A DNA stretch of 64,000 nucleotides from assembly GCA_016869675.1 (NCBI GenBank), contig VGDP01000006.1, positions 1 to 64,000 on the forward strand. The letters run 5' to 3'. Source of the stretch: Alphaproteobacteria bacterium. Lineage in GTDB: Bacteria > Pseudomonadota > Alphaproteobacteria > SP197. Both the position numbers and the translations under genes were made by a program. Shown here one piece after another: positions 2 to 13,338 of the stretch (positions are counted from its first letter, which is position 1; each line of letters starts with the position of its first letter). The notes beneath the pieces are model-generated. The model was given only the letters and a program-made list of their open reading frames with translations, ran no database searches and was not told where the DNA came from.

Positions 2-1058
2 CTAGAGCGGTTTCACTGAAGGTTGAGTCGTGGGGGATTTCCGGGGTCGGCGAACAGTGATTCTCTCGCCTTGTGATGAGCGAGGAGGGAGCGATGGGAC
101 GGCCTTTGAGTGTTGATCTTCGTCGGCGCGTTGTGGCGGCGATCGATGGTGGCTTGTCGACACGGGCGGCGGCTCGCCGGTTCGCGATCGGGATCGCGAC
201 GGCAGGGTCGTGGCATCGCCTGTGGCGTCGGACCGGGGATGTGCGACCGGGCCGGCAGGGCAAGCCGAGCGGCTCGAAGCTGGATACTCACGAGGGCTTC
301 ATCCTGGGCCTGATCGCGGAGAAACGCGACATCGCCTTGGCCGAGATCGCCGCGCATCTGGCCGAGGCCCATGGAGTCACGGCCTGCCCGGCGACGATCT
401 GGTACTTCCTGGACAAGCGCGGTCTGACGTACAAAAAAAGTCCGCGCACGCGAGCGAGCAGCAACGGGCGGACGTGAAGGCAGCTCGCCACGCCTGGTTC
501 GAGCGCCAGACCGATCTGCATCCGGCGACACGGGTCTTCATCGACGAGACCGGGGCTTCGACCAAGATGGCGCGCCTGCGTGGCCGCGCGCTCCGGGGCG
601 AGCGATGCCGTGCGAGCATCCCGCACGGTCACTGGAAGACCACGACGTTCACCGCCGCCCTGCGGCTCGACGGCCTGGCCGCCCCCATGATCCTCGACGG
701 CCCTATGCACGGCGCGGCCTTCCGCGCCTATGTCGAGCAGGCTCTGGTGCCCGAGCTCAAGCCCGGCGACGTCGTCGTCATGGACAACCTGCCGGCCCAC
801 AAGGTCGCCGGCGTGAGGGAAGCGATCGAGGCGGCGGGTGCTCGCCTGCTCTACCTGCCGCCCTACAGCCCCGACCTCAACCCCATCGAGATGGCCTTCG
901 CCAAGCTCAAGGCCCATCTGCGCAAGGCCGCCGCGCGAACCATTCCCGGCCTCTGGAACGCCATCGCCGAGGCCCTCGACGCCTTCGCACCGGCCGAGGG
1001 CGTCAACTACTTCGCCGCCGCAGGATACAACCTCGATTAAGTTGAATCGGCTCTAGAC
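2..1058 (+). mobile_element. IS630-family insertion sequence with terminal inverted repeats
   Basis: Left end CTAGAGCGGTTTCACT and right end (reverse complement) CTAGAGCCGATTCAACT form imperfect TIRs with TA at both ends; encodes a two-frame DDE transposase typical of IS630. Confidence 0.85.
73..1040 (+). CDS. IS630 transposase in two overlapping frames (orfA 73-477, orfB 210-1040), probable -1 programmed frameshift at A7 run 433-439
   Basis: ORF 73-477 has an HTH N-terminus ([28 protein letters not shown]); ORF 210-1040 has the DDE part ([35 protein letters not shown]); aaaaaaa at 433-439 lies at the crossover. Confidence 0.85.
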
Positions 1059-1860: not shown

Positions 1861-2020
1861 GGCATCTTCCTGAATGCTTGCATTGATGGCAATGATCGTA
1901 CTGCTAGCAAAGGGCTCACAAGCCCTTGATCGTCGCCGCCCGTACCGCCATTTCACCCTGGGTGTGATTGTGATTTAAGTCGCCGCGCCGGTCGTCGTTT
2001 GCCCGGCCCAAGGACCTTCA

Positions 2021-3037
2021 ATGGCCTCTCGCCTGCGGCTGCTCGTCATCACCGGGGACCACGGCGCGCCCGATCTGAACAAGCGCGGCGGCCGCTACAA
2101 CGAAGAGGACTTCGAGACCCACGGCCAGATGGTCGCGGCGTTGTCCTCGTTCGCCGACCTGGACGTGGCGGTGCAGAGCGACCACGGCGCGTTGCTCGAC
2201 CGCCTGCGCGACGATCCGCCCGACCTGGCGCTGAATTTCTGCGACACCGGGTTCAAGAACGAGCCTGCGCACGAGTTGAATATCCCGGCGTATCTGGAGC
2301 TTCTGGGCATCCCCTACAGCGGCGCGACGCCAGCCGCCATGGTGATGGCGGTGGACAAGGCCGCGGTGCGTCTGGTGGCGTGCGATCTGGGCATCGCGGT
2401 GCCCGGCGAGGAGTTCATCTGGGCGTCCGAGACCGCGCGGATGCCCGCCGGGCCCTACCCGGTGCTGATCAAACCGAACCGCACCGACGGCAGCGTCGGC
2501 ATCACCAAGGACGCGGTAGCCCGCGACGCGGCCGGGGCGGCGCGCTATCTCGCCTTCGTGCGCGACGACCTGCCCGGCTTCGACATCCTGGTGCAGGAGT
2601 ACCTGCCCGGGCCCGAATACGGCATCGGGCTGATCGGCAATCCGGAGGCCGGCTTCACCGTGCTGCCGGCGCTCGAGGTCGACTTCTCGGACCTGCCCGC
2701 CGGCCTAAACCCGATCCTGTCCTACGAATCCAAGGCGATCCCGGATTCGCCCTACTTTACGCGCATCCGCTACAAGCGCGCGGCGCTGGACGCGGCCGAG
2801 GAAGCGGTCCTGGTGCGGACAGCGCAGACCATGTTCCGCCGCTGCGGCCTGCGCGACTACGGCCGGTTCGATTTCCGGCGCGGCGCCGACGGCGCGATCA
2901 AGCTCCTGGAGGTCAACCCCAACCCGGCCTGGGCGACCGACGGCAAGTTGGCCTTCATGGCCGGCTTCGCCGGTATCGCGTACCCCGACATGCTGCGCGC
3001 CATCGTCGACGCGGCGCGCGCGCGCACCGGACGCTGA
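2021..3037 (+). CDS. D-alanine-D-alanine ligase-like ATP-grasp protein
   Basis: PYPVLIKPNRTDGSVGIT, VQEYLPGPEYGIGLIG, GRFDFRRGADGAIKLLEVNPNPAW. Confidence 0.8.
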   Translation: MASRLRLLVITGDHGAPDLNKRGGRYNEEDFETHGQMVAALSSFADLDVAVQSDHGALLDRLRDDPPDLALNFCDTGFKNEPAHELNIPAYLELLGIPYSGATPAAMVMAVDKAAVRLVACDLGIAVPGEEFIWASETARMPAGPYPVLIKPNRTDGSVGITKDAVARDAAGAARYLAFVRDDLPGFDILVQEYLPGPEYGIGLIGNPEAGFTVLPALEVDFSDLPAGLNPILSYESKAIPDSPYFTRIRYKRAALDAAEEAVLVRTAQTMFRRCGLRDYGRFDFRRGADGAIKLLEVNPNPAWATDGKLAFMAGFAGIAYPDMLRAIVDAARARTGR

Positions 3038-4255
3038 CTACGGCAGCACCAACGCGAACCAGCCGAGCGCCACGGCGAAGGCGAGCAGGGTCATGGGCAC
3101 GCCGGCGAGCGCGTGATCGACGAAGCCGAAGCGCTGGCCAACCGACGCCGCCCGTTCGGCAACGATGATGTTGGCGATGCTGCCGGTCAGCAGCAGGTTG
3201 CCGGCGAGCGTCGAGAGCACCGCGAGCGCGTGCAGGAACGCCGCGTCCACCGTGGGCATGGCCGCCAGCAGCAGCACCACGAGCGGCACATTGCCGACCG
3301 TGTTGCTGCCAGCGAGCGTGATCGCCGCCAACGCGCCATGGCCGGTGGGATCGATGCCCGCGCCCTCGAGGCCGGTAAGGAAGCGCGCCGGCAGCCCGGT
3401 CGCGGTGAACGCCGCCGTCACCACGAACAGGGCGGCGAACAGCACCAGCAGCGGCCAGTCCACGTCGCCCAGCATGGCGCGCGTCGGGCGGCGCCGGCTG
3501 ATCAGCAGCGCTCCGGCGATGACCAGGACGCTGGTCACCTGCGGCAGGCCGGCGGCGAAGGCGACGAGCAGCGCCACGGTCGCCACCCCGGCCTTGAGCG
3601 CCCCGGCGCGGTCGACGGCGGGCGCGGCCGTGGGCACCGGGTCCGGTGTATGGGCCAGCGCGCGCGCCCAGACGACCCGGATGGTCAGCGCCGCCGCGAC
3701 CAGCCCGATCAGCGCCGGCGGCCCGCACACGGCGAGGAACGCGAGAAAGTCCAGGTCACCGTGCTGGGCGATCAGGATATTCTGCGGGTTGCCGATGACG
3801 GTCGCAGCCGAGCCCGCGTTGGCGCCGGCCGCCAGCGCGATCAGGAAGGGCCGCGCGTCGAGCCCGCGCGCGACGATGGCGCGGCACAGCATCGGCGTCA
3901 TGGCGTAGACGACGACGTCGTTGGCGAACACCGCCGACAAAGCACCCGCCACCAGGACGGTCGTCACCATCAGCCGTGTCGAACCGACCCGGCTGGCGGC
4001 GATGCGCCAGGCGCACCAGTCGTAGAAGCCGCTGCCCGAGGCTTGGGCCGAGACGACCATCAGCCCGAACAGCACCAGCAGCGTACGCCCGTCGATGGCG
4101 GCAACCGCCGCCTCGGCCCCGATCGCCCCGGCGGCGTAGAGCACGATCGCGCCGATCAGCGCCACACCGGCGCGGTCGAGCGAAAGCCCGGGCACGCGCC
4201 CGGCCGCCATGCCCGCGTAGACCAGGGCGAAGACCGCCACGACCAGGGCGGTCAT
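3038..4255 (-). CDS. SLC13/ArsB-NhaD-type anion transporter
   Basis: Multi-TM MTALVVAVFALVYAGMAAGRVPGLSLDRAGVALIGA...SAVFANDVVVYAMTP...AGANAGSAATVIGNPQNILI; typical ion-transporter-superfamily repeats. Confidence 0.8.
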   Translation of the reverse strand: MTALVVAVFALVYAGMAAGRVPGLSLDRAGVALIGAIVLYAAGAIGAEAAVAAIDGRTLLVLFGLMVVSAQASGSGFYDWCAWRIAASRVGSTRLMVTTVLVAGALSAVFANDVVVYAMTPMLCRAIVARGLDARPFLIALAAGANAGSAATVIGNPQNILIAQHGDLDFLAFLAVCGPPALIGLVAAALTIRVVWARALAHTPDPVPTAAPAVDRAGALKAGVATVALLVAFAAGLPQVTSVLVIAGALLISRRRPTRAMLGDVDWPLLVLFAALFVVTAAFTATGLPARFLTGLEGAGIDPTGHGALAAITLAGSNTVGNVPLVVLLLAAMPTVDAAFLHALAVLSTLAGNLLLTGSIANIIVAERAASVGQRFGFVDHALAGVPMTLLAFAVALGWFALVLP

Positions 4256-5202
4256 GCGGCGGTAGCGGCGGCGGTCCTGCGTCGACGCCAGGGGCGCGCG
4301 GTGGCGTTGAACGCCAGCGACAGCCGATCGCACAGCGCGCGCCCCTGCGCGCGGTCCCAGCAGTTCACCAGCGCCAGGCGAAAGCCGCCGGGCGGCATGG
4401 AATGCTGGCTGGGGTCCTTGTCCTCGTGGAACGTGATCTGCAGGCTCGAGACGCCGGGCGTCGATCGCACCTCGGCCTGCAGGCCGGCGGGCGGGTGGCG
4501 GTAGCGCACGCCGTGGCGGCCGAACAGCACCACCGAGTAGCCGGTGCGCCGCTGCTCCTCGGGGAAGTCCCAACGGCCCTCGGCGTAGAGGCGTACCAGC
4601 GCCTCGACCCAGCCCGGGCCGTAAAGGTCCGGCCATTGGTCGGCGAAGCGCAGGTGCACCTCGATGATGCGCCCGCCGATGGTCTCGACGTTGAGCATCC
4701 CGGTGTAGCCCTTGAGATGCCGCCCGGTCCACGCGGCGACCCTGGCCGCCAGCGCCGGGCGCTCGTCCGCCTCGACGGCCCAGTGGTCGAACATGCCGCC
4801 GCCGATCGCGGCGCCGGTGGCGTGGCGCTGCCAACGGGCGTGCCCGTCCACCACGGCCACGTCGGTCGAGACGTGCTCGCCCTCGAGCAGCGTCATCCAC
4901 ATGTGGCCGGGCCGGTTGGCGCGCTTCATGCCGCGCGCGCTGCACACCACACGGCTGCCTGGGCCCATGCCGCGCATGTTGTAGATCGGCTTGCTGAACA
5001 CGGGATACGCCGTGGGCTCGACCCCGTGGGGCGCCGCCTCGAGGCCCTGGGTCTCGGCGATCAGCAGCTTGTTGTAGGTCCAGCGCTGGGCCGGGAACCA
5101 CATGTACGCATCCGCGTCCTCGGTCGGAACGCGCACGTCCGCCGGGCAGAGTACGTGATCGAAAAACTGGAACCGCCACGGGTCCCATTCGCAGATCGGC
5201 AT
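4252..5202 (-). CDS. uncharacterised protein, probable divergent ATP-grasp-like enzyme
   Basis: Order of motifs YPVFSKPIYN ... GHMWMTLLEGEHVSTDVAVVDG ... GYTGMLNVETIGGRIIEVHLRF resembles ATP-grasp; ATGA overlap with the transporter start. Confidence 0.55.
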   Translation of the reverse strand: MPICEWDPWRFQFFDHVLCPADVRVPTEDADAYMWFPAQRWTYNKLLIAETQGLEAAPHGVEPTAYPVFSKPIYNMRGMGPGSRVVCSARGMKRANRPGHMWMTLLEGEHVSTDVAVVDGHARWQRHATGAAIGGGMFDHWAVEADERPALAARVAAWTGRHLKGYTGMLNVETIGGRIIEVHLRFADQWPDLYGPGWVEALVRLYAEGRWDFPEEQRRTGYSVVLFGRHGVRYRHPPAGLQAEVRSTPGVSSLQITFHEDKDPSQHSMPPGGFRLALVNCWDRAQGRALCDRLSLAFNATARPWRRRRTAAATAA

Positions 5203-5255
5203 GGTCCGCCTCTCCGGCCGTCGAGTCTATCGGTCGTGCCGTGCCGCGAACAGGG

Positions 5256-5924
5256 TCATGCGCTGTCGTCCACCTCGGCGCCGGCGCCGCGCGAGCGCGA
5301 CAGCGCGCTGGCCGGGACGTAGGTGCGCCGGGCGAAATCGCGGAGCCGCGTCCACGTCGCGGGGTCGACGTCGACGCCGCGTGCGATGGCGTCGCGCCAG
5401 CGCCGGTCGAGCGCGGTCGCGGCGAGCGTGGCCGCCGCGCGTGGCGGCGGGCCCGCGACCCGGACATCGACGTTCACGTCGGACGCGGGAACGAGCACAG
5501 CGCCATGGAGCGCCAGCGCGCCAGCCGCGTCGAACCGCACCTCGGCGCCGTCCCAGGCGATCGTGAGCGCAAGACCGGTTCGGGCGAAGCGTTCGGCGGC
5601 GGCGACCAGGAACAACGGATCGCGTGCGTCCGTGACCTTGAGCCCACCGGCGCCGGAGCGCAGCCGTGCCACCGCGAGATCAATGAGCGTACCGGCATGG
5701 AACGCGCAGGAAGCATCCGCCAGCGCCACGCGACCATCGTCGAGCACCAGCCCGCGCGCCGGACCATGCTTCAGCGCGGCCGCCAGGGGATCGAGCGCCG
5801 GCAGGCCGCGCGCCTCGAGCCAAGTGGCGGCGGCCCCGGCCTCGGTATCCACCCCGGCCGTGGCGCCAGCGCCGCGCGCGGCCCGTTCGACCGTGGTGGC
5901 GATCTCGTTGAGCGAAACGTGCAT
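5256..5924 (-). CDS. DUF3726-like uncharacterised protein
   Basis: 222-aa ORF MHVSLNEIATTVERAARGAG...; same operon direction as its neighbours; family assignment from memory. Confidence 0.5.
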   Translation of the reverse strand: MHVSLNEIATTVERAARGAGATAGVDTEAGAAATWLEARGLPALDPLAAALKHGPARGLVLDDGRVALADASCAFHAGTLIDLAVARLRSGAGGLKVTDARDPLFLVAAAERFARTGLALTIAWDGAEVRFDAAGALALHGAVLVPASDVNVDVRVAGPPPRAAATLAATALDRRWRDAIARGVDVDPATWTRLRDFARRTYVPASALSRSRGAGAEVDDSA

Positions 5925-5930
5925 GGTCGA

Positions 5931-7595
5931 TCAGGCCGGCGTCGCGGCGAACGCCCAGTCGTCGGCGTCGGCGTGGCCGAACTCGTCGGCCAGCGGCGCA
6001 CCCTGGAACAACGTCACCCGGACCCAACGGTCGGACTTCGGATCGAAGCGCGACGCGCCGAAAAAGGCGAGCTTACAGCGCAGGATGTCGATCGGCAAGC
6101 AGGAACGGTCGAGCAGGTTGTCGCGGATCTCGGCGTAATCGAGCGACGCCAGGCTTTGCACGCGCGCGACCCAGTGACGGTGCTCGGGGTGCGCCAGCAG
6201 GAACGCGGCGACGGATGCGTCGGGCTGGCCCTCGAGCGCGCGGCGCAGCGCCTGCACCTCGCGCGCGACGCCGATGCGTGTCTCCAGCTTGGCGCCCGGC
6301 TCGGTCCACCGTTCGCCGAGGCGCGGCTCGAGCTTCTCCTCGGAGGCGTACCAGAACAAGTGCTGGGCGTCGGGGCGCGCGAAGTCGTAGCCGAGCGCCC
6401 AGCCGTACGCCTGGTCGATCAGCGCGCGCAGGCGCCCGATCGGCATGGTCGGGTCGGTCACGACGGCCTCGGGCGAGGCCATGGTGCCTTCCAGATCGTC
6501 GACCCCATCGCCATGAGGTTCCAGGATCAGGCTGGCCACCAGCTCCTGCAGGTCGAGCGACCCGGTCGCCTCGACCGTCGCCATCAGGCGGTGCCACGGC
6601 CGTTCGCCATCGGGCAGCGCGACGGACGCGAGTTCGCGGCCGAGCCCGTCGAGCCGTCCCCGGAGACCGGGATTGTCGGTACGCCAGCGGGCAACGTGGG
6701 CGTGGGCACGGGCGAGCACGGCGGCGAAGCGGGCGCGCGTGGCGGGCGTGGCGGTGGGCAGCGCGCGGACCCGCGCGATCGCCGTCTCGCGCGCCAGGAA
6801 CCAGCGGTGCACGAGTTGCGGGTGCCCCACGAGGAACGGCGCCATGCCGAGCCCGGTGGCATTACCGATGCCGAGCCCGCGGCGGAGTGCGCGATCGAGC
6901 GGCACGGCGCGCCCACCCGATCGTCGCGCGGCCATGTGGTCCGCCAGGTCGAGCGTGAAGTGGCGGATCAGGTAGACCGTGAGCATCTCGGCCTGGAAGG
7001 GGTGTTCCAGCACCGGGCCGTCGTGCAGACGCGGCCGGTCGGCGATGCCGAACTTGCCGTTGCCGTAGACCGCGGTGGTGCGCATCAGGTAGCCGACCTC
7101 GGCCAGGCGCCAGGCGTCCGGCTGGCGCCCGGCGGCCAGCCGTTCGACCACGTGTTCGAACAGGCGCACGCTGCGGTTGGCGCGGCTCAGCACCAACTCG
7201 TCGGCGCTGAAGCGCCCGGCCTCCTGGAGCGGCACCTGCGCCGCCAGCCGGTCGAGCACGTCGGGCGTGGCCTCGCCCACGGTCAAGGCGAACGAGGCAT
7301 CCCATGCCTCGGCGATGACGCGGTCGGTGCGCGCCGTGGGTGTCAGGTTCTGGCTGAACGCGGCCAGCCCGAAGATGCCGTGAGGCGTGGCGACGCGGTA
7401 GGCCGCGCGGCCGACGCCGTCGGCGTCGATCGCCCAGATGGGCCGCGACATGGACCATCTCTCGCGACCCATGCGGCGCACCAGGCTGCGCGTGAAGCTG
7501 AGGCGCGTGGGGAACGCGGCACCCATGCGCGCGAGCCGCATCACGACGTCGGGTGGTCGCAACGTCAGGCGTTCGGGCACTGGTTGAACGGTCAT
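5931..7595 (-). CDS. conserved hypothetical protein (554 aa)
   Basis: Long ORF with non-random composition; start overlaps the PBP1A stop by ATGA (7592-7595); 6 bp before the next ORF. Confidence 0.65.
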   Translation of the reverse strand: MTVQPVPERLTLRPPDVVMRLARMGAAFPTRLSFTRSLVRRMGRERWSMSRPIWAIDADGVGRAAYRVATPHGIFGLAAFSQNLTPTARTDRVIAEAWDASFALTVGEATPDVLDRLAAQVPLQEAGRFSADELVLSRANRSVRLFEHVVERLAAGRQPDAWRLAEVGYLMRTTAVYGNGKFGIADRPRLHDGPVLEHPFQAEMLTVYLIRHFTLDLADHMAARRSGGRAVPLDRALRRGLGIGNATGLGMAPFLVGHPQLVHRWFLARETAIARVRALPTATPATRARFAAVLARAHAHVARWRTDNPGLRGRLDGLGRELASVALPDGERPWHRLMATVEATGSLDLQELVASLILEPHGDGVDDLEGTMASPEAVVTDPTMPIGRLRALIDQAYGWALGYDFARPDAQHLFWYASEEKLEPRLGERWTEPGAKLETRIGVAREVQALRRALEGQPDASVAAFLLAHPEHRHWVARVQSLASLDYAEIRDNLLDRSCLPIDILRCKLAFFGASRFDPKSDRWVRVTLFQGAPLADEFGHADADDWAFAATPA

Positions 7596-9649
7596 CGGTC
7601 GCCCGATGTCTCAAAGCGATCGTTGGCGGGCGCGGCCGATTCGTCGAGCCCGAGGCCCTCCATGAGATCGCCGATCAGATCGTCGAACGGTTGCGCGTCG
7701 GGCTCGGCCGGCGGCTCGTCCACGGGCATGGCGTCGAGCAGCGGCTGGGCGGGGCGATCCGCCATGGCCGCGGTCATGAAGCGCGCGAAGACGCGGGCGG
7801 GCGCGCCGCCGCCGGTCACCTTCGCCATAGCGGCGTTGTCGTCGTTGCCGACCCACACGCCGGCGACCAGATCGCGCGTGAAGCCGACGAACCAGGCGTC
7901 ACGGTAGTCTTCGCTGGTGCCGGTCTTGCCCGCGACCGGCCAGGGCACGGCCGCGGCGGTGCCGGTGCCGAAGGTCACGACGCCGGTCAGCATGTTGATC
8001 AGGTCGGCGCGCGCGCGCGCTTCCAGGGCCACGCCGCCGCCCGAACCGCCGCGCGCGTACAGCACGTGGCCGCGCGGATCGCGCACCTCGGTGATGCCGT
8101 AGGGCAGCACCGCGCGGCCATCGTTGGGCAGCACGGCGTAGGCCGCCGTGAGTTCGAGCAGCGAAACCTCGGACGAGCCCAGCACGAGGCTGAGATCGCG
8201 CCGCAGCGACCCGGCGACGCCGAAGCGGCGCGCCACGTCGATCACCCGGTCGATGCCGACCTGCTGGGCGACCTGCAACGTCACGCTGTTCAGCGAACGG
8301 GCCAGCGCCTCGGCCAACGTGACCTCGCCGAAGTACCTGTCGTCGTAGTTGCGCGGCGCGAAGCCGGCGATTGAGACAGGCGCGTCGGTGAACCGGCTGG
8401 TCGGCCTGAGCCTGGCCTCGAGTGCGGCGGCGAACACGAACAGCTTGAACGCCGAGCCGGGCTGGCGACGCGCCTGGGTCGCCCGGTTGAACTGGCTGGC
8501 TTGGTAGTCGCGCCCACCGACCATGGCGAGCACGGCGCCATCGGGCGCCAGCACCACCAAGGCACCCTGGCTCATGCGCAGATCGGCGCCATTCCTCGCC
8601 AGTTCCTCGGTCAGGGCGCCTTCAGCGGCGGCCTGGAAACGCGCGTCGAGCGTGGTCACCACCACCACGTCGCCACGGTCCGGGCCGACATAGCCGCCCA
8701 GGTCGTCGAGCACCCAGTCGGCGAAGTAGCGCCCGCCGGTGCCGGTCGAGCGCACGGCCGCCGGTTCGGCCGGCGCGGCCTTCGCTTCGCGCGCCGCGGC
8801 GGCGGTGATGGCGCCGGTCTCGGCCATGGCGTCGAGCACCAGCGCGGCGCGCGTCTGCGCCGCCGGCAGGTCGCTGGTCGGCGCGTAGCGGGTCGGCGCC
8901 TTCAGCAGTCCCGCCAGCATCGCCGCCTGGGCGACCGTGAGATCGCCGGCCGAGCGGTCGAAGTAGCTCTGGGCCGCCGCGTCGATGCCGTAGGCGCCAG
9001 CGCCGAAATAGACCCGGTTGAGATAGATCGCCAGGATCGAACGCTTGTCGAAGGTGTGCTCGAGCCACAGCGCCAGCATCAGCTCGCGCGCCTTGCGCGC
9101 GAAGGTGCGTTCCGGCCCCAGGAACAGGTTCTTGGCGAGCTGCTGGGTGATCGTTGAGCCGCCCTGCACGACGCGCCCGGCCGCCACATTGGCCGCGGTC
9201 GCGCGCAGTAAGCCGAACAGGTCGACGCCGCCATGGTCGAAGAACCGGCGGTCCTCGATGGCGAGCACGGCGGCGATCAGGTCCGGGTCGATGTCGTCGT
9301 AGGCGAGCGGCCGACCGACGATGCCGCCGAGTCTGGTGATGACTGCGCCGTCCGCCGAGGTCACCACGATCGAGGGGCCCTGGCGCGGCTCCGCGAGTTG
9401 GGCGGTATCCGGGAGGTCGAGCGCCAGCCAGGCCGCGAACCCGGCGGCGCCGATGGCGACCCAGATGGCCAAGGCGATGCTCCAGCGCAGAAACCGCGCA
9501 CCCCAGCGCCGGCGCGCGCCTGCCATGGCGGCCTTGGCCTTGGCGCGGCGGCGGCCCTTGGCGGGCACGGCACCGCCCTTGGTGGGCGCGGCGCCCAGGC
9601 GCAGGCTGGGGTCGGCCTTGAGCTCGATCCGGGATTCGGCGCGGGGCAT
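7592..9649 (-). CDS. PBP1A-family bifunctional transglycosylase/transpeptidase
   Basis: AIEDRRFFDHGGVDLFGLLRA, GGSTITQQLAKNLFL, RQPGSAFKLFVF, AGKTGTSEDYRDAWFVGFT. Confidence 0.95.
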   Translation of the reverse strand: MPRAESRIELKADPSLRLGAAPTKGGAVPAKGRRRAKAKAAMAGARRRWGARFLRWSIALAIWVAIGAAGFAAWLALDLPDTAQLAEPRQGPSIVVTSADGAVITRLGGIVGRPLAYDDIDPDLIAAVLAIEDRRFFDHGGVDLFGLLRATAANVAAGRVVQGGSTITQQLAKNLFLGPERTFARKARELMLALWLEHTFDKRSILAIYLNRVYFGAGAYGIDAAAQSYFDRSAGDLTVAQAAMLAGLLKAPTRYAPTSDLPAAQTRAALVLDAMAETGAITAAAAREAKAAPAEPAAVRSTGTGGRYFADWVLDDLGGYVGPDRGDVVVVTTLDARFQAAAEGALTEELARNGADLRMSQGALVVLAPDGAVLAMVGGRDYQASQFNRATQARRQPGSAFKLFVFAAALEARLRPTSRFTDAPVSIAGFAPRNYDDRYFGEVTLAEALARSLNSVTLQVAQQVGIDRVIDVARRFGVAGSLRRDLSLVLGSSEVSLLELTAAYAVLPNDGRAVLPYGITEVRDPRGHVLYARGGSGGGVALEARARADLINMLTGVVTFGTGTAAAVPWPVAGKTGTSEDYRDAWFVGFTRDLVAGVWVGNDDNAAMAKVTGGGAPARVFARFMTAAMADRPAQPLLDAMPVDEPPAEPDAQPFDDLIGDLMEGLGLDESAAPANDRFETSGDR

Positions 9650-9703
9650 GGCAGCGAGATTAGGCGGGCAATCGGGCGAAGGTGTGACGCGCCGATCGTC
9701 GCA

Positions 9704-13338
<3,635 letters not shown>

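Follow-up and report, generated by a model that had tools for sequence, protein, structure and literature searches.

A dipeptidase gene and a hypothetical gene stand together in the pepD-hypothetical-dgcAB dimethylglycine cluster of Pseudomonas and Vibrio, which serves the catabolism of betaine and includes BCCT transport (PMC12093977). Operons that are like it in these respects surround U554 and DUF3726, two genes that we analyzed on a stretch of 64,000 nucleotides from an alphaproteobacterium (contig VGDP01000006.1, positions 1 to 64,000; this whole stretch is called the window below). The likeness of the dipeptidase and of the hypothetical gene is one of description, not of sequence, and neither U554 nor DUF3726 is described in the available part of PMC12093977. 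The U554 operons differ from that cluster in that dgcAB and gbcAB were not seen in the operons examined. The pathway for homarine (N-methylpicolinate) occurs in the same kind of organisms as the U554 operons; a homarine operon may be similar in gene make-up, a likeness that serves as a lead only.

Other genes of the same run resemble described ligases. L-amino acid ligases (BL00235, RizA, and BacD) and PylC have a predicted fold in common with the protein encoded at 4252-5202, which is only 11-18% identical to them, is shorter, and carries E-x-H in place of E-x-N. D-alanine-D-alanine ligase (Ddl) shares the PF07478 C-terminal domain and an EVNPNP motif with the protein encoded at 2021-3037, which scores far below the Ddl cut-off and most relatives of which bear an N-terminal methyltransferase.

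Compared with these systems, the gene run in the window is a composite of three units, namely a PBP1A gene, the U554-DUF3726 pair, and a module of two ATP-grasp genes and a transporter gene. Within this composite we consider it rather probable that U554 and DUF3726 constitute an enzyme of two subunits that takes part in the catabolism of betaine-type solutes.

Obligate pairing of U554 with DUF3726

The two genes follow each other in the window:

5931-7595, minus strand, U554 (554 amino acids), an unnamed family
5256-5924, minus strand, DUF3726 protein, PF12525 with E 1.3e-13 and 51 bits against a gathering cut-off of 22.1

Of the 385 alphaproteobacterial genomes that were sampled, 52 carried U554. 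Searches of Pfam and NCBIfam returned no significant match and no family model for it, nothing significant was found among PDB sequences, and a test for homology between U554 and DUF3726 was negative. In an alignment of 56 sequences, some 80 columns were invariant, among them R89, D91, R92, E96, W98, D99, R138, N140, R144, R172, K181, N245, E270, K421, E423, R425, R506, and K508; the window U554 keeps the invariant columns. The AlphaFold2 model had a predicted local distance difference test (pLDDT) score of 90.3 and a predicted template modeling (pTM) score of 0.92. When it was compared with 350,542 PDB chains by Foldseek, the best hit had an E value of 0.31 and a template modeling score of 0.08, which is no fold match, and a search of BFVD gave nothing. 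As modeled, the fold is thus new to the PDB. This confident predicted fold of U554, with no PDB counterpart, makes the pair the interesting half of the stretch.

In DUF3726 proteins, PF12525 covers only the N-terminus, the region with which the window protein passes the cut-off. The family extends beyond the Pfam model, and alignment revealed a conserved C-terminal tail, SRxxGAGAGLxDND, outside PF12525. This tail is degenerate in the window protein (SRSRGAGAEVDDSA). Comparison of DUF3726 with the N-terminal domain of Ldh2 by hhalign yielded a weak match (probability 11%), from which no relationship is claimed. In the literature searched, DUF3726 was not mentioned, nor was the U554 operon named.

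Conservation of the pair was followed in 108 U554 loci, 80 of which (46-58% identity) came from a genome-contig scan and 28 from relatives and a DUF3726 search. As judged with a DUF3726 profile, DUF3726 stood directly behind U554, in the same orientation, in 99 of them. In the reverse search with PF12525 across 299 genomes of the phylum, U554 lay beside DUF3726 in all 21 non-own loci. A plasmid of Mesorhizobium sp. 131-2-1 encodes a natural U554-DUF3726 fusion of 814 amino acids (WP_199201047.1; locus L240, 8947-11391), which ends with the intact family tail GAGAGLSDND. U554 and DUF3726 are thus an obligate pair; as a first-pass annotation of the window had expected, both are uncharacterized and are conserved together without PBP1A. 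Because of the fusion and the constant adjacency, which are strong indirect evidence, we infer that the two proteins form a physical complex. U554 would probably be the large subunit of a two-part enzyme and DUF3726 probably the small one.

Gene neighborhoods of the pair

Elsewhere, the pair sits in an operon with LysR, aldehyde dehydrogenase (ALDH), M19 dipeptidase-like, and Ldh2 genes, often together with betaine transporters. An M19 dipeptidase-like gene was found within 6 kb of U554 in 86 of the 108 loci, and within the same distance were an Ldh2-family dehydrogenase (47 loci), an ALDH (40 loci), and a BCCT transporter (26 loci). Gammaproteobacterial operons had the order ALDH-M19-BCCT-U554-DUF3726, with or without a terminal RidA gene. 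According to annotated records, the order LysR-ALDH-membrane dipeptidase-U554-DUF3726 is found in Phaeobacter inhibens DSM 17395 (PGA1_RS18995-RS19015), where it adjoins genes for dimethylsulfoniopropionate demethylation, and in Aminobacter, where it is followed by Ldh and by genes for an ABC transporter of glycine betaine. On a conjugative Pseudomonas plasmid, ALDH-M19-BCCT-RidA is divergent from LysR-U554-DUF3726. In Sinorhizobium meliloti, a distant form combines U554 with a dipeptidase and with a protein that weakly resembles DUF3726.

The window's own genome contains exactly one U554 and one DUF3726 gene, and no M19, ALDH, or Ldh2 gene stands beside them as in the betaine-type catabolic operon. 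An M19 orthologue with 50% identity is located on a different contig (C31), where a gene for a GMC oxidoreductase precedes it by about 2 kb. The best ALDH and Ldh2 candidates were 36% and 31% identical, respectively, and no close orthologue of either was found in this genome. A tree built from 107 U554 proteins placed the window copy on a long branch, sister to a clade of 53 members mostly with M19 nearby. In this lineage, the pair has probably been split off from its operon and has come to lie behind PBP1A. Two M19 dipeptidase-like genes of the same genome, at L109 (4469-9974) and L111 (4675-7425), each lie near a gene for a GMC (choline-dehydrogenase-like) oxidoreductase.

Gene layout in the window

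All six open reading frames of the first-pass annotation were recovered at its coordinates. The single correction concerned the start codon of the transporter gene, which the open reading frame listing gave as an over-long frame of 809 amino acids and which was corrected to yield 3038-4255. Besides the pair, the run comprises:

7592-9649, minus strand, PBP1A, bifunctional transglycosylase/transpeptidase, PF00912 (E 1.6e-62) and PF00905 (E 7e-31)
4252-5202, minus strand, divergent (second) ATP-grasp protein, assigned by predicted fold, without a Pfam or NCBIfam match
3038-4255, minus strand, CitMHS/ArsB-superfamily transporter (405 amino acids), PF03600 (E 6.5e-50, above the curated cut-off)
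2021-3037, plus strand, D-Ala-D-Ala-ligase-like (Ddl-like) ATP-grasp protein, PF07478 (E 3.3e-15)

PBP1A passed the TIGR02074 cut-off (576 versus 508.75 bits), with both the transglycosylase and the transpeptidase domain present. It sits behind gyrB-recF-dnaN, three genes named by eye, and is a housekeeping neighbor.

The PBP1A stop and the U554 start share an ATGA (7592-7595), the gap between U554 and DUF3726 amounts to 6 bp (5925-5930), and the stop of the second ATP-grasp gene and the start of the transporter gene again share an ATGA. These junctions had been read as a five-gene coupled operon, and as junctions they are real. A gap of 53 bp (5203-5255) separates DUF3726 from the second ATP-grasp gene, so that the coupled blocks are two, PBP1A-U554-DUF3726 and ATP-grasp-transporter, rather than one five-gene run. 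The Ddl-like gene and the transporter gene are convergent and abut end to end (3037/3038). Between 1950 and 9750, two terminator-like sites were found, the same number as expected from shuffled sequences.

Proposed function of the pair and alternative explanations

We propose that U554 and DUF3726 form a two-subunit enzyme whose partners in most genomes would be an M19 amidohydrolase, an ALDH, and a dehydrogenase of the Ldh2 type, or RidA in place of the latter. The substrate would be a betaine-type (quaternary ammonium) compound imported via BCCT or ProVWX transporters. The make-up of the operons, which combine betaine-type transport, M19 hydrolysis, semialdehyde oxidation, and Ldh2 or RidA imine/enamine chemistry, suggested that the ring or the amine of a quaternary ammonium compound is broken down. 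In the genome analyzed here, the pair would have moved behind PBP1A, detached from its partners, and may be translated from the PBP1A message. A farther-reaching version, which we hold only tentatively, is that the pair is an undescribed enzyme whose fold is absent from the PDB and which performs a key step in betaine-type metabolite breakdown across Alpha- and Gammaproteobacteria. The fixed link of U554 to DUF3726, to the M19 amidohydrolase, and to betaine transporters makes a role of this kind directly testable in genetically tractable marine strains, and DUF3726 would thereby be given a function.

Several points weigh against this proposal. The betaine-type role is the most likely one, but its substrate, reaction, and interaction are all predicted from gene context. 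No active site is recognizable in U554, as its model has no fold match. Most of the U554 loci trace to one seed protein, and close relatives among them are non-independent. Transporters near the pair are of non-betaine type in some organisms, with a branched-chain amino acid type in Mesorhizobium and an ABC system with an extracellular solute-binding protein in Sinorhizobium. Among the U554 genes of the window's own family, several have no M19 gene nearby, and some have no detectable DUF3726. In a divergent subgroup of these (L175, L176, and L178; 32-40% identity), M19, histidinol-dehydrogenase-like, CMD-like, and class II aldolase-like neighbors replace the usual operon. The substrate may therefore vary. 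A search for promoter-like sites across 1950-9750 found none.

The first-pass annotation had proposed one pathway of five or six genes for envelope-linked or peptide biosynthesis. The spacing in the window is indeed tight, and the two ligases and the transporter are genuine and belong together elsewhere. They do not, however, form one pathway with U554, DUF3726, and PBP1A: the second ATP-grasp, transporter, and Ddl-like genes were near U554 in none of the 108 loci, and a penicillin-binding protein gene was near it in one, as a weak match on the opposite strand. Among the 385 genomes, U554 was shared with the second ATP-grasp gene by four (2.7 expected) and with the Ddl-like gene by three (2.3 expected), both at chance level. 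These neighborhood and co-occurrence data largely rule out the single pathway, to which we attach next to no credence. The supposed cell-wall link fell with it, since PBP1A lies outside the U554 operons elsewhere and nothing ties the genes to the cell wall. Conservation of the neighborhood, the absence of which had been named as the point that would refute the proposal, was lacking for the whole run and present for either part. The window shows that tight spacing alone can bring unrelated modules together.

Three other explanations concern the pair itself. The U554-DUF3726-M19-ALDH-Ldh2-LysR operon could be the homarine catabolic pathway and the pair an enzyme already known from it. PMC13390433 cites a 2026 Nature Microbiology paper (doi 10.1038/s41564-026-02313-7) on a homarine pathway that is conserved among environmental bacteria. 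The taxonomic range, with Ruegeria and other marine Alpha- and Gammaproteobacteria, fits, and the types of gene may fit as well. The transporters near the pair vary, however, and Mgd genes, which need not be adjacent, were not noticed near U554 in annotated records. This explanation is possible, if somewhat doubtful; homarine is a candidate substrate, and the enzyme may already be described. It is unlikely that the pair acts as a regulatory, scaffold, or maturation factor for the M19 enzyme instead of as a catalyst. Next to DUF3726, M19 is the partner that recurs most constantly, and it is also present in the distant Sinorhizobium form, but the window's genome has further M19 genes with no such pair beside them, and the invariant, often polar columns of U554 look enzyme-like. 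Decay of the pair to a relic in this genome would account for the lost or dispersed partners, the long branch, and the degenerate DUF3726 tail. We judge it improbable to a similar degree, as both frames are intact, the start/stop overlaps are retained, and the invariant U554 columns persist. We prefer the two-subunit enzyme of betaine-type solute catabolism.

The ATP-grasp proteins and the transporter

The second ATP-grasp protein was encoded in 20 and the Ddl-like protein in 17 of the 385 genomes. The former gave no ATP-grasp match in Pfam or NCBIfam, its profile found no significant match among PDB sequences, and no copy was detected in the viral contigs and plasmids searched. Its model (pLDDT 87.9) matched the fold of L-amino acid ligases (3vot/4wd3) and PylC with Foldseek E values of 5e-13 to 3e-11, or of 5e-13 to 1e-9 over BL00235, RizA, BacD, and PylC together, and the best 50 of 409 PDB matches at E ≤ 0.001 were ATP-grasp enzymes or proteins containing biotin carboxylase (ATP-grasp). 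By its modeled fold, the protein belongs to the ATP-grasp superfamily, in agreement with its initial designation as ATP-grasp-like. The canonical E-x-N metal-binding motif is replaced by E181-V-H183, the histidine of which is invariant in 17 sequences.

The transporter missed the ArsB cut-offs (TIGR00935, 35.7 versus 415 bits; NF011980, 51.4 versus 457 bits), and the Ddl-like protein, with 74.1 bits against the TIGR01205 cut-off of 245.65, is not a Ddl orthologue. Judged from these profile scores, the ArsB and Ddl assignments hold at the superfamily level only. Relatives of the Ddl-like protein (L227-L237), which occur in many Alphaproteobacteria, are mostly the C-terminal half of class I methyltransferase-ATP-grasp fusions, mostly of about 620-740 amino acids. 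The window version is the ATP-grasp part alone, with no N-terminal methyltransferase.

The second ATP-grasp and Ddl-like genes co-occurred in five genomes versus 0.88 expected (p = 0.0009), and in four when the window's own genome was left out (p = 0.005). In all five they share a contig at a distance of about 8 kb or less. The transporter gene is near one or the other in loci L151, L153, and L227; it accompanies the co-occurring genes in L151 and L153 and adjoins a methyltransferase-ATP-grasp fusion in L227. The second ATP-grasp, CitMHS transporter, and Ddl-like genes thus constitute a separate, loosely conserved module, which most likely would provide two amide- or peptide-bond ligases and an exporter for a small product.

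Two further associations were considered and rejected. A link to ergothioneine was suggested by egtB/egtD genes adjoining the second ATP-grasp gene, which was seen only in four genomes, all from a single family (L150, L152, L154, and L155), and the window's genome has no egtD. A CocE/NonD hydrolase gene, a candidate for a further member of the module, lay near it in five loci, an adjacency made largely uninformative by at least 12 paralogues in the window's genome. These paralogues (about 50% identity, several in tandem) are distributed over contigs C1, C5, C13, C23, C27, C44, C57, and C62.

Other genes of the window

Two further elements were recognized by eye. An IS630-type transposase is encoded at the edge of the window (73-1040), close to the Ddl-like gene, in the overlapping frames 73-477 and 210-1040. 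In a VapBC-like pair on the minus strand (1172-1956), the frame 1172-1606 encodes a PIN-type protein and the frame 1603-1956 a protein like ribbon-helix antitoxins.

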